NCBI RefSeq assembly: GCF_019916085.1
Contig: NZ_CP049834.1
Location: forward strand, 1,224,501-1,288,500
Reading direction: 5' to 3'
DNA: 64,000 bases
DNA from: Aquirufa lenticrescens
Lineage (GTDB): Bacteria; Bacteroidota; Bacteroidia; Cytophagales; Spirosomataceae
Part shown: one piece after another, positions 47,188 through 54,635 of the stretch
How the letters are laid out: each line of letters starts with the position of its first letter
Numbering within the stretch: position 1 is the first letter of the stretch
Notes under the pieces: generated by a model
The model's input: the letters and a program-made list of their open reading frames with translations, nothing else
Database searches by the model: none
Told to the model about the DNA's origin: nothing
Position numbers and translations under genes: made by a program

Positions 47188-47471
47188 TGAAATCATTCAA
47201 AGAATCCTTGTCGCAATCTGCTCCTGATCCGCAACTTTCGACTATTCTAAAAAGTCTTTGGTATGATGCCAAAGGAGACTGGGATCAAGCTCACGCCCTC
47301 ATCGATCAGCTCGCTGATCGTGATTCAGCTTGGGTTCATGCCTATTTGCACCGCAAGGAGGGGGACATTTGGAATGCAGATTATTGGTATGCCCGCGCTA
47401 AGAAAACGCGTCCGACATATTCGTTGGATGAAGAATGGGCGAACTTAGTTTCTTATTTTTTTAACACCTAA
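47187..47471 (+). CDS. Hypothetical 94-residue protein
   Basis: Small helical protein with aromatic pattern SLWYDAKGDWDQAHALIDQL and LHRKEGDIWNADYWYARA; a conserved-looking family in Bacteria with no known function. The sequence after its start is coupled to the previous stop. Its own stop region contains the putative ECF -35 element of the downstream TonB receptor. Confidence 0.72.
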   Translation: MKSFKESLSQSAPDPQLSTILKSLWYDAKGDWDQAHALIDQLADRDSAWVHAYLHRKEGDIWNADYWYARAKKTRPTYSLDEEWANLVSYFFNT

Positions 47472-47500
47472 GAAGGAATTCTTTGCTTGGATCATCTAAG
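47472..47500 (+). promoter_or_regulatory. Putative ECF-sigma promoter of the TonB receptor
   Basis: GAAG (47472-47475), exactly 17 bp, CATCTAAG (47493-47500). Same -10 octamer and spacing as the divergent pair at 51171-51254, with a partial -35 (GAAGGAA shared with the 51223 copy). 46 bp before the ATG at 47547. Confidence 0.65.
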
Positions 47501-47546
47501 TGAATAGTAAGCAATTCTGCTTCAATTATTTACTAATCATCCTCCT

Positions 47547-49892
47547 ATGTGGCGTTTCCTATCCATTCTTTTGTTGATTTCATTCAACGCTTTTACGCAA
47601 AACAACACCCAAACCATACGTGGTGTTATTACTGACAAACTTTCTCAAACACCCATTCCGGGGGCCAGCATTCAAATTGCATCTTTGCAAAAAGGAGTGG
47701 CAACGGATAGTTTGGGCCAATTTAGTTTGAAAAACATTCCCCCTAATCGCTATGAAATTAAGGTTACTTGCGTGGGATATAAAAACGTTACGCTTCCGAA
47801 TGTGATTGTGATTTCTGGGAAAGAAGTAATCCTAGATATTCAATTAGAAGAGTTGTTTAATCAACTCAGCGAAGTCGTTGTTAAAGCCAGTAACAAAGGC
47901 GGAACGATAAATAAATTAGCGAGTGTTAGCGCTCGAACGTTTTCGATGGAAGAGGTGAATCGTTATGCGGGAGGTCGTTCAGATCCAGCGCGTTTAGCCG
48001 CAAATTTTGCTGGCGTTTCTGCGCCGGACGACAGCCGAAATGATATCGTTATTCGGGGCAATTCTCCGGTGGGTGTTTTGTGGCGAATCGATGGAATGAA
48101 TGTGACTAACCCGAACCATTTTGCCTCCGTGGGTACGACGGGTGGAGCCGTAAGTGCTCTTAATACGAATCTCTTAAAAAATTCGGATTTCTTTACCTCT
48201 GCTTTTCCCGCAGAATATGGGAATGCGACGGCCGGTGTTTTTGATTTAGGCTTCCGTTCTGGGAATAATAAAAAGAGAGAGACCACTTTACAAATGGGCG
48301 TTATAACCGGTTTAGAAGCGACGACAGAAGGGCCATTTTCAAAGAAAAGTGACGCATCTTATGTGGTGGGATATCGCTATTCATTAGCAGGAGTCGCACA
48401 AAAAATGGGCGTTGACATCGGTACCACCGCCTTGCCGTCATACCAAGACTTGTCTTTTAAAGTGGCGAGCGGCAATAGTAAATATGGCAAATTTTCCTTG
48501 TTTGGGATTTTGGCAAACAGTACGATTGAAATCAGTGGAGGGAGTTCTAGTAGCTTATATGGGAACGGAAATCAGGTCGACTTTGCGAGTAAAATAGGAA
48601 TCACAGGCTTGAATCACTTTAAGCAATTGACATCAAAGTCATACATTACCTCGACCTTGGGCGTAAGCTACTCTAGCAATGACCAAACGTCCTATGATTT
48701 TGACCGAAACGACAACCTCGACTTTATTAAAGAGGTAAATAATGTAGCTCGAACGAGCTATAATTTTAGTTCCACTTACCATTCAAAACTAAATGCACGG
48801 ACCTTTATTAAGATGGGAATTCGAAACGAAGTGATTGATCTGTATTTGAATTATAAAACTAAAAATAGGGCTAGAGACACCTATATGCAGCTTTGGGATT
48901 ATAATAGTAGCACGAACCTTGTCCAAGCATTTGCTCACGTTAAATACGATGTTAGCGAAAGATTGACGATGAATGCGGGTTTGAATACCCAATTATTTTC
49001 GTTGAATAATTCTACTTCTGTGGAGCCACGTTTGGGCTTGATTTATGCAACGTCGGATAATAGTAGTTTGAATTTTGGCTACGGATTGAATGCCCAACTG
49101 CAGCCGATCAATGTCTATTTTTTAGCGAGCACAAACCCGAGCGGAAGCAAGAGTTACACAAATCAAGGTTTGGACTTTACGAAAAGTCACCACTTGGTTT
49201 TAGGTTATAATGTTCAACCTTGGAAGGACTGGAGAATTAAGACGGAGGCGTATTACCAGTCTATTTATAATGTTCCGGTTACGTCATATTCTAGCAGTTA
49301 TTCGATGTTGAATACGGGGGCGACATTTAAAGCAGATTTACAGGATAGTTTGGTTAATGAAGGAACGGGCAAGAATTATGGCCTTGAATTAACGGTGGAG
49401 AAGTTTTTCAGCGACGGGTATTATGGCCTATTTACGACCTCCTTGTATGATTCAAAATATGTCGCCAGTGATGGCATTGAACGAAATACAGCCTTTAATG
49501 GCAAGTATATTTTTAATGTATTAGGGGGAAAAGAGTGGACGGTAGGTCGCGTGGGTCGAAATAAGATTTCGATTGATGTAAAATATACGAATGCAGGAGG
49601 GCGGGCTTATACTCCGATAGACCTATTGAAGTCTAAAGCAACCGGTCGAGAACAACTATCTTCTGAGGAGTATTCGAGTTTCTATGAAAATTATTACCGG
49701 GTAGATTTCAAGGTAGGATACACCTTAAATAGCGCGAACAAAAACCGTTCACATACGGTCTCGTTAGATTTGCAAAATGTGACGAATCACAAGAATATTT
49801 TTTCGCAGAATTATGACAATAAAAGCCAAAGCATCAACACGAAATACCAATTAGGCTTCTTCCCTAATGTGGTGTATAAATTGCAGTTTTAA
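47547..49892 (+). CDS. TonB-dependent receptor with CarboxypepD_reg-like domain
   Basis: 781 residues. Signal peptide (FLSILLLISFNAFTQ), N-terminal carboxypeptidase-regulatory-like domain (residues 22-105: IRGVITDKLSQTPIPGASIQ), plug domain (NDIVIRGNSPVGVLWRIDGM, with VFDLGFRSGNN) and a 22-strand barrel ending VVYKLQF. No SusD partner, so a metal or siderophore-like ligand is more likely than a glycan. Preceded by an ECF-type promoter matching those of the sigma gene 1.3 kb downstream, with which it converges (4-bp overlap with the CpxP/CnrX-like gene). Confidence 0.9.
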   Translation: MWRFLSILLLISFNAFTQNNTQTIRGVITDKLSQTPIPGASIQIASLQKGVATDSLGQFSLKNIPPNRYEIKVTCVGYKNVTLPNVIVISGKEVILDIQLEELFNQLSEVVVKASNKGGTINKLASVSARTFSMEEVNRYAGGRSDPARLAANFAGVSAPDDSRNDIVIRGNSPVGVLWRIDGMNVTNPNHFASVGTTGGAVSALNTNLLKNSDFFTSAFPAEYGNATAGVFDLGFRSGNNKKRETTLQMGVITGLEATTEGPFSKKSDASYVVGYRYSLAGVAQKMGVDIGTTALPSYQDLSFKVASGNSKYGKFSLFGILANSTIEISGGSSSSLYGNGNQVDFASKIGITGLNHFKQLTSKSYITSTLGVSYSSNDQTSYDFDRNDNLDFIKEVNNVARTSYNFSSTYHSKLNARTFIKMGIRNEVIDLYLNYKTKNRARDTYMQLWDYNSSTNLVQAFAHVKYDVSERLTMNAGLNTQLFSLNNSTSVEPRLGLIYATSDNSSLNFGYGLNAQLQPINVYFLASTNPSGSKSYTNQGLDFTKSHHLVLGYNVQPWKDWRIKTEAYYQSIYNVPVTSYSSSYSMLNTGATFKADLQDSLVNEGTGKNYGLELTVEKFFSDGYYGLFTTSLYDSKYVASDGIERNTAFNGKYIFNVLGGKEWTVGRVGRNKISIDVKYTNAGGRAYTPIDLLKSKATGREQLSSEEYSSFYENYYRVDFKVGYTLNSANKNRSHTVSLDLQNVTNHKNIFSQNYDNKSQSINTKYQLGFFPNVVYKLQF

Positions 49893-50351: not shown

Positions 50352-50618
50352 TTAATAGGTTAAATTGTTTGCGGCGTAGGATTTAGCTACGGATTCCAGT
50401 TGAATTTGGGCGATTTCTTGTTGCGTTTGTTTCCCAGCATAAAATAGGGCACCGGAGAAAAATATCGCGACGAAGCTCGCCGCCGCCATCCAGCGCATCG
50501 ACTCGCTTTGCTCTTTTTCTTGCATGGCATCAAACATATGATCTAACACCTCTGTTTGATTTTTCCACTGTAGGCCTTGAAGGACCTGCAATTGTTCGTC
50601 TAATGGGTCTTCTTTCAT
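50352..50618 (-). CDS. Small one-TM protein, probable anti-sigma factor
   Basis: 88 residues: a cytoplasmic N-terminus of about 40 residues, one membrane helix (AAASFVAIFFSGALFYAG) and a 25-residue periplasmic tail. This is the topology of CnrY-type anti-sigma factors. The ATG overlaps the sigma stop by 4 bp. No ZAS-type HxxxCxxC zinc motif is present. Assignment rests on size, topology and position. Confidence 0.65.
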   Translation of the reverse strand: MKEDPLDEQLQVLQGLQWKNQTEVLDHMFDAMQEKEQSESMRWMAAASFVAIFFSGALFYAGKQTQQEIAQIQLESVAKSYAANNLTY

Positions 50619-51157
50619 TTCAATTCTTTTTTAATGTTTTCTTTCGCACGACTGACGAGCGATTCTATAGCTTTGATACTTAAGTTCATCAATTCACTGG
50701 CCTCGGCATACGACATTTCATCTAATTTTATCAGCGTAAAGGCGACGCGTTGGTTTGGATTTAATCGGTCAATGGCGCGGTAAAGTGACAGCGCTTTTTC
50801 TTTATTTTCTAATTGAATATCCGGGTGGAGTTCCGTGGACTCATAGCTTTTAGATTCGTTTGGCATCCACCAGGGCAATAATTCCCGCCACTGCGATCGT
50901 CTTTTTTCTTTTCGTAGCTTTTCTAAAGCCTTGTTTATCGCAATCCGAATAATCCACGTACTCAACGAAGATTGACTCTTAAAAGATTTGATCGACTCAT
51001 AGACTTGAATAAAGGTCTCTTGACACACATCCTCTGCCTCTTCACGGTTTCTCAGAATCTGCATGGCGTGATGGAACACCCGACCTTGGTATTCTTTTAC
51101 CAAAGTCCGGAATGCCACCTCGTCACCCGAAATCAAATCCCTAATTTTCCGATCCAT
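50615..51157 (-). CDS. ECF-type RNA polymerase sigma factor
   Basis: 180 residues. Region 2 (EYQGRVFHHAMQILRNREEAEDVCQETFIQVYESI, in parts; STWIIRIAINKALEKLRKEK) and region 4 (LNPNQRVAFTLIKLDEMSYAEASELMNLSIKAIESLVSRA, in parts) are intact, with no extra C-terminal domain. Read from one arm of a divergent promoter pair (51171-51202), indicating autoregulation. Followed by the anti-sigma-like and CnrX-like genes with overlaps of a few bases. Confidence 0.93.
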   Translation of the reverse strand: MDRKIRDLISGDEVAFRTLVKEYQGRVFHHAMQILRNREEAEDVCQETFIQVYESIKSFKSQSSLSTWIIRIAINKALEKLRKEKRRSQWRELLPWWMPNESKSYESTELHPDIQLENKEKALSLYRAIDRLNPNQRVAFTLIKLDEMSYAEASELMNLSIKAIESLVSRAKENIKKELK

Positions 51158-51170
51158 TCTTCAATCATAC

Positions 51171-51254
51171 CTTAGATGTTTCTGCTTTCCAAATTCTTCG
51201 GTTGAAATAAAAATATTTTTTTACCGAAGGAAATGTAGATGTGGCGCATCTAAG
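51171..51254. promoter_or_regulatory. Mirror-symmetric divergent ECF promoters
   Basis: Plus strand: ACCGAAG (51223-51229), 17 bp, CATCTAAG (51247-51254), toward 51273. Minus strand: ACCGAAG (51202-51196), 17 bp, CATCTAAG (51178-51171), toward the sigma gene at 51157. Elements and spacing are identical on both strands; the 20 bp between the -35 elements is A/T only except for one G. Neither side has a TAnnTTTG box. Confidence 0.85.
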
Positions 51255-51272: not shown

Positions 51273-52241
51273 ATGTTAAGCAAATCCATTAAAATAATCT
51301 TCAGCTGTTTATTATTAACAGCTTGTTCGCAATCGGAAGATATTAGCCCATCTAATGCTACAGACGTCATTTTAGAGGTTGATCCTACGCTTTTTATCCC
51401 AGCAGGTTTAGTGGGAACTATCACTAAAGTGGAAAAAACACTTTCAAATGGGACTACCACGATGTGCTATAAAATCACCACTTCTAAAACACCTACGGAT
51501 CATGTAATGGGTCCTTGGTGTCCCACTAATGCGTCGGATGATGCTAGTAAAGGTGGGCTTTGGTTTGAAAAAGGCAATATCTATGATGTGGATGGAGCGT
51601 TTGTTAAAAATTTGGCCACTTTTTATAATGATTCAAAATGGAATCTAATAAGAAGCGACGGAACCATTAAAGTGACAAACACGAAAGAAGCTTGCCAGGC
51701 TGCTGCACGTCCTGACGTAGATCCACAATACAATAATTATTGCGTGGAATGTCAACCCACCTATTTCTCTAACATTAAATTAACGTATTATATTCCTGTT
51801 AAACCGATTAAAACGAACGGGACAACAACTTTAGGTGGCGGAGCTCCGGGCGGTATGGTAGGAGTTGCATTTAACGGAATTAATTTTGATCCACCCGCAC
51901 CTACACAGGCTATTTTAGGGGCTTACACCTTAGCTCCAATGGATGACGCAGGCGGTCACGTCAATGGGGCAACGGGTTATCATTACCATGCTGCTACCGG
52001 GAAAAGCAAGAAAGTAGAACAAGTAGATGGACATGCCGCGATGATAGGGTATGCGATGGACGGTTTTGGGTTGTATGAACTGCTGGATAAAACCAATAAA
52101 GAACCGACAGATTTAGACGCTTGTCGCGGACATTATGACACGACCAGAGGTTATCATTATCATGTGGCCAAAGCAGGAAGTAATAGTTTCATCGGCTGTT
52201 TTCATGGCGCGCAAGGAAGCGTTGAAATAACCACTAATTAA
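51273..52241 (+). CDS. YHYH-domain lipoprotein
   Basis: 322 residues with lipobox LLLTAC (Cys18). Two YHYH motifs are visible (GYHYHAATG about residue 233, GYHYHVAKAG about residue 292), diagnostic of the YHYH protein family, with additional His, Cys and Asp residues that could bind metal. Function of the family is unknown. First gene of a four-gene operon driven by the ECF promoter; its stop overlaps the next ATG. Confidence 0.85.
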   Translation: MLSKSIKIIFSCLLLTACSQSEDISPSNATDVILEVDPTLFIPAGLVGTITKVEKTLSNGTTTMCYKITTSKTPTDHVMGPWCPTNASDDASKGGLWFEKGNIYDVDGAFVKNLATFYNDSKWNLIRSDGTIKVTNTKEACQAAARPDVDPQYNNYCVECQPTYFSNIKLTYYIPVKPIKTNGTTTLGGGAPGGMVGVAFNGINFDPPAPTQAILGAYTLAPMDDAGGHVNGATGYHYHAATGKSKKVEQVDGHAAMIGYAMDGFGLYELLDKTNKEPTDLDACRGHYDTTRGYHYHVAKAGSNSFIGCFHGAQGSVEITTN

Positions 52242-53560
52242 TGCGTGGCCTACTAATTTTACTGTTTTTTTTGCCCCTAGGTGTTTTTGGACATAGTTCA
52301 CAAATCTCCACTTTTGCACTTGTTAAAGACTTAAAAGGACAATGGACTGTTCACCTCAGTGCGTCATTAGAGGCTTTTGAAAGTGCGTTAGGAAACAAAA
52401 AATTTAGCTCTGCTGAAGCTTTTCAAAAAGAGCTAATTCAGCAGGTCAAAAGCGACATTAAAATCAAGTCGGGGGTTCTACAATCTGTAAACTTAAACGA
52501 TGGTCAATGTCATTTAGGCCATCAAACGGATTTGAAATTTACATTAAGTGGTTTATCAGCTGAAGCATCTACTATTTCTGTGGAAAATGAGTTCTTTAAA
52601 GAACTGAACAGCCATTTTATGGTATTTAAAGTCATTAATGGAGCCACAGAATCGAATCAATTCGTACTGCAATCTTCGAATCATTTTTCAGCTCAGGTAC
52701 ACATTCAGCCTACGGGTATCATAGTAGATTCTGAGCAGGCGTTTAACTATTATTATCTCCTTTTTATTGCTCCTATTGTATTACTTCTCTTACTTAAATA
52801 TCCCATGAAAAAATCCATAAGCGTAGTTACGTTAGCCACGTTATTTTTCGCCTGTTCTACAGATGATTCTACTGTTACTCCAGCTGCCTCATCAGCCGAA
52901 GTTCCAGCCGTATATAAGAAAATCTATGGCGCATCCAGTGTGACGAGTGATAGGACGACTATTTCCATCAAAGTAAACGGGTTGCCGGATCATAAAAGCC
53001 CTTATTATGCAACGACCAATAGTCTATATCAGTCGTATTCCGGGCTTACTTTTGGAGGATATATTTTTGAAAAAAATCCGAATTCCATTATCGAACAATC
53101 GGCTACTTTCAAAATTCCTGTTAACCCAGTGATGGCAACAAATCATGCAGCAACACCTTTAGGTCCCATCGGTATTGCTTTAAATGGCGTACCATTTTTC
53201 AATCAATATGCCGGCCCGAACAACCAAGAACTAAAGGGAGAAATGGCGGGATTTGATCAGTTTTATGGTCATCCACAAAACTCAGGGGTATACCACTACC
53301 ACGTGGAACCGTTGCATCTAACCACCGTTAAGTCTACTAAATCCGGCCTTCTGGGATTCCTTTTGGACGGATTCCCGGTATATGGACCGCAAGAAGAAAC
53401 GGGTTCTGCGGTGACGAATGCAAATTTAGATGTGTACCATGGACATAGCCATGCCACGGTAGATTATCCCAATGGAATTTACCATTACCATTTTACGTCA
53501 GAAGCTCCTTATTTAAATGGTAATGGTTTTTATGGAACGCCGGGAACTCTTACACAATAA
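52241..53560 (+). CDS. Fused protein: periplasmic domain + TM + YHYH lipoprotein-like domain
   Basis: 439 residues in one frame. Residues 1-17 are a signal peptide (ending VFGH); residues 18-165 a soluble domain with His residues; 168-186 a hydrophobic helix (YYYLLFIAPIVLLLLLKYP). At residue 189 (ATG 52805) a complete lipoprotein signal peptide begins in frame: MKKSISVVTLATLFFAC, followed by a YHYH domain with YHYHVEP and YHYHFTSE. So either a recent fusion or two proteins with an internal start. Coupled to both neighbours by 1-bp overlaps. Confidence 0.8.
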   Translation: MRGLLILLFFLPLGVFGHSSQISTFALVKDLKGQWTVHLSASLEAFESALGNKKFSSAEAFQKELIQQVKSDIKIKSGVLQSVNLNDGQCHLGHQTDLKFTLSGLSAEASTISVENEFFKELNSHFMVFKVINGATESNQFVLQSSNHFSAQVHIQPTGIIVDSEQAFNYYYLLFIAPIVLLLLLKYPMKKSISVVTLATLFFACSTDDSTVTPAASSAEVPAVYKKIYGASSVTSDRTTISIKVNGLPDHKSPYYATTNSLYQSYSGLTFGGYIFEKNPNSIIEQSATFKIPVNPVMATNHAATPLGPIGIALNGVPFFNQYAGPNNQELKGEMAGFDQFYGHPQNSGVYHYHVEPLHLTTVKSTKSGLLGFLLDGFPVYGPQEETGSAVTNANLDVYHGHSHATVDYPNGIYHYHFTSEAPYLNGNGFYGTPGTLTQ

Positions 53561-53967
53561 TGATGAGATACGCTGTACTTCTTCTTTTTTTTTGGAGCTG
53601 TTCTAAATCAGAGCCGAAAACCGTAGTCGAAAAAAAGTATTTCCTATCTGGTCAGATTAGGGAAATTCGATACATCCAAAATGGAGTAAGGCAGGGTATG
53701 CAAACGGCGTTTTGGGAGAATGGCAAGAAGCGTTTTGAATACACTGCGGTTAATGATGCATACGAAGGAGAGCTTAAAGAATGGGCTGAAAATGGACAAC
53801 TTTTTCACTTAGCCCATTACAAAAATGGACAAGAAGACGGGGTCCAAAAGATGTGGCATGCAAACGGCAAAATTCGTTCGAATTTTGTGATCATAAATGG
53901 TCGCCGATACGGTTTATTAGGCACTAAAAACTGCAAGAATCGGGATGAGAAATTATTGGCTTATTAG
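53560..53967 (+). CDS. YwqK/MORN-repeat lipoprotein
   Basis: 135 residues with lipobox FFWSC (Cys14). At least three repeats of the form FLSGQIREIRYIQNGVRQG, FWENGKKRFEYTAVN and WHANGKIRSNFVIINGR, typical of the YwqK-like antitoxin-repeat family, in which repeats form beta-hairpins. Though the family name includes antitoxin, no toxin is beside it; a surface binding role is more likely. Start overlaps the YHYH fusion stop; end overlaps the SCO gene by 23 bp. Confidence 0.8.
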   Translation: MMRYAVLLLFFWSCSKSEPKTVVEKKYFLSGQIREIRYIQNGVRQGMQTAFWENGKKRFEYTAVNDAYEGELKEWAENGQLFHLAHYKNGQEDGVQKMWHANGKIRSNFVIINGRRYGLLGTKNCKNRDEKLLAY

Positions 53968-54571
53968 TATTTTCTTAGTGGCTTGTTCGGAAACCCCTGT
54001 TTCGAAAATTCCTTTTTATAACACCCCTGATTTCAATCCCTATTTTATCAGTGAGGCGGAGGCTAGTTCGAAAATTACGCACCGCATTAAACCTTTTGCC
54101 TTTTATAATCAAGACAGTACATTATTCCGCAGTGAATCACTTCAAGGAAAAGTGTACGTGGCGAACTTCATTTTTACGCGCTGCAGCAATATATGTCCTG
54201 ATATGACTGCTCAAATGAAGCGCATCGAAAAAGCTTTTAAGTCAAATTCAACTGTAGCCCTTGTTTCTTTTACCGTAACGCCTTGGTTCGACGATGTGAA
54301 GACACTGCGTAAATTTGGCGAAAAATTCCAAATCTCCTCATCGAATTGGTCTTTGTTAACGGGCCCCAAAGCATCCATCTACACCCTTGCCCGCCAATCC
54401 TTTTTTGCAGAAGAGTCTATCGGTTATAATAAGGATACAAACGAGTTTTTACACACGGAGCACATCATTTTAGTGGATCAAAAAGGCCGCATTCGCGGGA
54501 TTTATAATGGTACGATTCCCTTTGATGCAGATCAATGCATAGAGGACATGAAATTGCTTTTGCAGGAGTAA
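53945..54571 (+). CDS. SCO1/SenC family copper chaperone lipoprotein
   Basis: 208 residues with lipobox FLVAC (Cys14). Thioredoxin-like fold with the copper-binding CxxxC motif C80-SNI-C84 (FTRCSNICPDM) and the distal histidine in EFLHTEHIILVD (H170 or H173). SCO proteins deliver copper to cytochrome oxidase or handle periplasmic copper and redox stress. Last gene of the ECF-controlled operon. Confidence 0.92.
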   Translation: MRNYWLISIFLVACSETPVSKIPFYNTPDFNPYFISEAEASSKITHRIKPFAFYNQDSTLFRSESLQGKVYVANFIFTRCSNICPDMTAQMKRIEKAFKSNSTVALVSFTVTPWFDDVKTLRKFGEKFQISSSNWSLLTGPKASIYTLARQSFFAEESIGYNKDTNEFLHTEHIILVDQKGRIRGIYNGTIPFDADQCIEDMKLLLQE

Positions 54572-54635
54572 GGGCTTATTTTATCGAAAAAATACATTAA
54601 CTTGAATTTTCAACAAAATTTTTAATTCAGTACCT

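Follow-up and report, generated by a model that had tools for sequence, protein, structure and literature searches.

Does a short site in front of a TonB-dependent receptor gene of Aquirufa lenticrescens tie this receptor to the ECF sigma operon next to it, and how far does the regulon so defined extend? The first-pass annotation of the window (the whole stretch of 64,000 nucleotides that was analysed) had taken the site for the third copy of an ECF promoter, and its description proved accurate: the site, GAAGGAATTCTTTGCTTGGATCATCTAAG, follows immediately 3' of the stop codon (47469-47471) of a 94-aa gene, lies 46 bp before the receptor ATG (47547) and has GAAGGAA in common with the copy upstream of the YHYH operon. 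The third exact copy is found on the minus strand, read from 51199 to 51171, 5' of the sigma gene, and the pattern GAAG-N17-CATCTAAG, that is, two boxes with a 17-base gap, is identical at all three sites (Table 1). It is highly probable that this element (GAAGGA, 17-base gap, TCTAA) represents an ECF-sigma promoter serving the sigma, YHYH and receptor units of a proposed sigma-release regulon. The promoter assignment for the receptor and its link to the sigma factor are very likely, and we infer that transcription of the receptor depends on this factor. The receptor leader (47533-47549) ends in CATCCTCCTATG, an anti-Shine-Dalgarno-like sequence unchanged in the relatives L048 and L049; a structured leader 5' of the receptor was considered and is unsupported (z -0.7).

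Table 1. Predicted features of the module and its edges, with positions in the window.
Feature	Position	Strand	Basis
Left CTTATTTT direct repeat at module edge	47452..47459	+	Single copy at the empty site of L287
ECF-type promoter of TonB receptor, GAAGGA ... TCTAAG	47472..47500	+	Exact motif; conserved in L048, L049
TonB-dependent receptor, 781 aa, CarboxypepD_reg and Plug, without STN domain	47547..49892	+	Pfam
CnrX/NccX-related periplasmic sensor, 152 aa, N-terminal membrane helix	49889..50347	-	Family profile
Putative anti-sigma of 88 aa with a single hydrophobic helix, resembling CnrY in size, layout and gene order	50352..50618	-	Sequence; same place in relatives
ECF sigma factor, 180 aa, regions 2 and 4	50615..51157	-	Pfam and NCBIfam
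ECF-type promoter of sigma operon	51171..51199	-	Exact motif; kept in L048, L049, L050
ECF-type promoter of YHYH operon	51226..51254	+	Exact motif; single changes in L048, L049, L050; GARGG-N17-RTCTA form before Y1 orthologs across the order
YHYH protein Y1, lipoprotein-like	51273..52241	+	Pfam PF14240
Y2, N-terminal domain (separate gene elsewhere) fused to YHYH domain	52241..53560	+	Pfam; separate ORFs in L155-L166, L282
MORN-variant repeat protein	53560..53967	+	Pfam
SCO1/SenC protein	53945..54571	+	Pfam
Right CTTATTTT direct repeat at module edge	54575..54582	+	Single copy at the empty site of L287

Pattern scans of the whole genome (2,505,188 bases, with the reversed pattern as control) recovered the exact two-box pattern three times, always within the module and over a span of 3.8 kb, and 17 times when one mismatch was allowed, against 13 for the control. 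The first-pass annotation had suggested a scan for enrichment of the octamer at this regulon. By itself CATCTAAG does not mark it and was rejected for that purpose, being present in 122 copies genome-wide versus 85 for the control, whereas the two-box pattern is confined to the module. As the octamer is so common, chance alone would pair it with GAAG at N17 about 0.6 times per genome, which lends some ground to the idea that the three matches came together by accident; such a coincidence is nevertheless scarcely credible, given that all exact matches fall within 3.8 kb, stand in promoter position and are conserved, and that the same promoter precedes YHYH genes of other genera. The relaxed form GARGR-N17-RTCTAA has 13 matches in the genome, only the three module sites lying between genes with a start codon close downstream; the other copies, nine of them within ORFs and one intergenic with no gene following, were for this reason rejected as additional regulon members in A. 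lenticrescens. A profile trained exclusively on other genomes placed the module sites at ranks 1 to 3 among all positions of the window; its scores did not rise above the best of shuffled sequence, and since the training sites had been picked with a similar pattern, only the ranking was used.

The module is carried by three relatives, namely L048 and L049, which belong to the same genus and have sigma factors 92-93% identical to that of the window, and L050, a MAG labelled Flavobacteriales (77%). All three retain the promoters of the sigma and YHYH units, that of the YHYH unit with single changes. The receptor promoter is kept in L048 and L049 and is known from three genomes including that of the window, two of which are very similar at the site; in these relatives it has no changes in 12 core bases and six in the other 17. 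When the most divergent comparison is taken for each of the three promoters, 0/36 core bases are changed versus 25/51 other bases (p about 8e-8), and comparison of the aligned copies thus demonstrates constraint on the predicted promoter boxes. Retention of the boxes while the spacer drifts, exclusivity of the pattern to the module and the occurrence of the promoter before YHYH genes throughout the order all speak for the earlier proposal that the receptor is tied to the adjacent sigma operon.

Similarity of the receptor 5' region to L048 and L049 starts just before GAAGGAATTC, and the DNA farther upstream differs. The module, 7.1 kb long, is flanked by the 8-bp direct repeats CTTATTTT, and in the congeners L284 and L287 the IolE-like gene located 3' of SCO1 in the window comes immediately after the 94-aa gene. 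No transposase was found within the module, which we infer to move as a unit. These edges, the empty site in congeners and a genome with no further promoter-placed copy fit the self-contained regulon that had been claimed for this locus. Other congeners carry different inserts at this position, about 1.1-1.4 kb in length. In the congener L282 (2934-7458) the position is occupied by an HTH/SocA-Panacea gene, a small gene and a multicopper oxidase gene, followed by YHYH, MORN and SCO1 genes; neither the sigma gene nor the motif was found at this locus.

Another reading is that the receptor owes its transcription mostly to a housekeeping promoter, or to read-through from the 94-aa gene, and that the ECF-like site is incidental. 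The 94-aa gene does run in the direction of the receptor, its final base lying next to the site, and a partial Bacteroidetes-type promoter can be read in the sequence as TTTG (47482) and TA (47505) with a 19-base gap, judged by what we take to be the consensus. However, L048 and L049 lack TTTG but retain GAAGGA and CATCTAAG; the different upstream DNA of these relatives includes, in L049, a tRNA-Glu gene on the opposite strand near the promoter; and the 94-aa gene is a component of the old site, outside the module. An incidental site is, on this evidence, improbable, and an ECF-type promoter remains the preferred assignment.

The sigma factor that would read these promoters contains regions 2 and 4 only (Sigma70_r2 and Sigma70_r4_2, both above the Pfam cut-off), and its putative anti-sigma has no curated family match in Pfam or NCBIfam. 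The sensor by itself gave no Pfam match above cut-off; other members of its family match Metal_resist and LTXXQ, and a profile built from that family recovers NccX (E 3e-5) and several CnrX chains in the PDB (7e-5 and below). As predicted from these proteins, the regulator is a CnrYXH-like trio, sharing with the nickel-cobalt systems CnrYXH/NccYXH of Cupriavidus and relatives the ECF sigma factor and the membrane-tethered CnrX-type sensor, with the 88-aa protein of one hydrophobic stretch as candidate for the short one-helix anti-sigma. Unlike in these systems, the genes follow the order sigma, anti-sigma, sensor, and the place of an RND efflux pump among the targets would be taken by YHYH, MORN, SCO1 and the TonB receptor. 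The sensor also departs from CnrX at its metal ligands: its Ile118 aligns with Met123 of CnrX in the profile alignment, and differences are seen, in the alignment read by eye, at positions 42, 46 and 63, which together with His119 we take to be the remaining CnrX ligands. His119 has an equivalent in His114, invariant in an eight-member alignment, so that Met123 and three of the other four presumed positions, i.e., most of the CnrX metal ligands, are not kept. The CnrYXH layout combined with the changed ligand positions suggests that the regulator would work like CnrYXH and respond to a different signal.

In the known system, CnrX with bound metal loosens CnrY from CnrH, and Met123 of CnrX is essential (PMC7689651). 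Promoters stand there before both the regulator and the target operons (cnrYp and cnrCp; PMC9045368), an arrangement that recurs in the module. In the mechanism proposed here, the one-helix anti-sigma and the CnrX-like sensor would hold the sigma factor at the membrane in the resting state; a signal in the periplasm, which is probably a metal ion or a stress related to metals and may involve copper, would act on the sensor and free the sigma factor, which would then transcribe its own operon in a feedback loop, the YHYH/SCO operon and the receptor. The promoters themselves share with classical ECF promoters, exemplified by the RpoE-type GAACTT-N16-TCTGA, a GAA-type -35, a TCTAA-type -10 and a gap of 16-17, and differ from them in a -35 that reads GAAGGA or GAGGGA.

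The adjacency of a TonB receptor, an ECF sigma factor and an anti-sigma is also a feature of the Fec-like systems of Bacteroidota, and the receptor might, by FecIRA-type surface signalling, sense a ligand and signal to the anti-sigma. Unlike in those systems, Pfam found no STN domain in the receptor and no FecR domain in the anti-sigma, a CnrX-related sensor is present instead, and the receptor stands outside the conserved core: in relatives such as L050 the sigma trio occurs without a receptor beside the module, and that genome has no more than a partial match to the receptor, at 29%. Signalling through the receptor is very unlikely, and the missing STN domain argues for an output, or effector, rather than a FecA-type input. 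Receptor relatives are widespread in the order (193/390 genomes) and, among the matches listed, many adjoin LytTR two-component genes. None of the 39 receptor homologs inspected elsewhere carries the promoter and, no receptor standing beside the module of L050, the receptor was rejected as a general member of the regulon family. It would rather be an effector recruited, and so brought under control of the sigma factor, in the lineage of the window (three genomes seen).

The promoter of the YHYH genes has a much wider distribution. In many genera the sigma, anti-sigma and sensor genes lie beside YHYH, MORN and SCO1 genes, as in the window. For orthologs of Y1 collected by protein similarity from 12 other genomes, with the motif not considered in the choice, CGARGGA ... 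RTCTAA with the same gap is found upstream of most. The strict form GARGG-N17-RTCTA occurs within 200 bp upstream of 8/15 Y1 genes versus 4/796 control genes (p about 7e-13), a contrast that is, if anything, diminished by the fact that some control loci had been fetched around motif matches. Of the four motif-bearing controls, three may be regulon members themselves: an EF-hand protein, a CotH protein and an anti-sigma candidate. YHYH-MORN-SCO operons elsewhere have the same promoter or a close form of it, e.g., GTAGGA ... CGTCTAAG. It was also seen 5' of small EF-hand lipoproteins and of a CotH protein in other genomes (L213, 3063 and 5364; L166, 2499), which are possible regulon members. Upstream of sigma genes in distant relatives the strict motif was found in 0/14 cases, with weak forms in two others, and autoregulation is therefore seen only near the window. 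In L214 (5190) and L217 (5496) it is found at the 3' end of the sigma gene, upstream of the anti-sigma gene, a position that would give negative feedback only.

As far as predicted promoters and gene neighbourhoods can tell, the conserved core of the regulon is the set of YHYH, MORN and SCO1 genes, to which the receptor was added in the lineage of the window, and the motif is the mark of a regulon family broader than the single regulon first described. This breadth, namely the coupling of the promoter word and the CnrX-like ECF module to YHYH genes across the order, is what the present comparison would add to the first-pass annotation; a CnrX-like ECF module and conserved promoter tied to YHYH proteins in this way were not found described in the literature searched.

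The function of the core is likely metal handling, perhaps of copper. The multicopper oxidase of L282 and SCO1 point, by association only, to copper. For YHYH proteins, the literature searched held no tested function, and one paper predicts a YHYH protein to be a zinc-dependent hydrolase; PDB relatives of the receptor and of Y1 were limited to N-terminal-domain or weak matches, with no hint of a ligand. Y2 joins two proteins encoded by separate genes in most other genomes, its N-terminal part resembling DUF6702 relatives. Tentatively, and with distinctly less confidence than is placed in the promoter itself, the locus may be viewed as one case of a regulon that spans the order and has so far gone undescribed. 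In it, an ECF sigma factor released by a CnrX-like sensor whose ligands differ from those of CnrX would switch on a YHYH-MORN-SCO pathway for copper handling; in the lineage of the window the regulon would be carried as a transferable cassette of 7 kb, with the TonB receptor added as an uptake arm.

The conserved promoter, the sensor and the recurring partners (SCO1 and MORN, with a multicopper oxidase in one congener) would assign YHYH proteins to a regulatory context and make a link to metals open to testing, and the promoter word may allow the regulon to be traced in other genomes of Bacteroidota.
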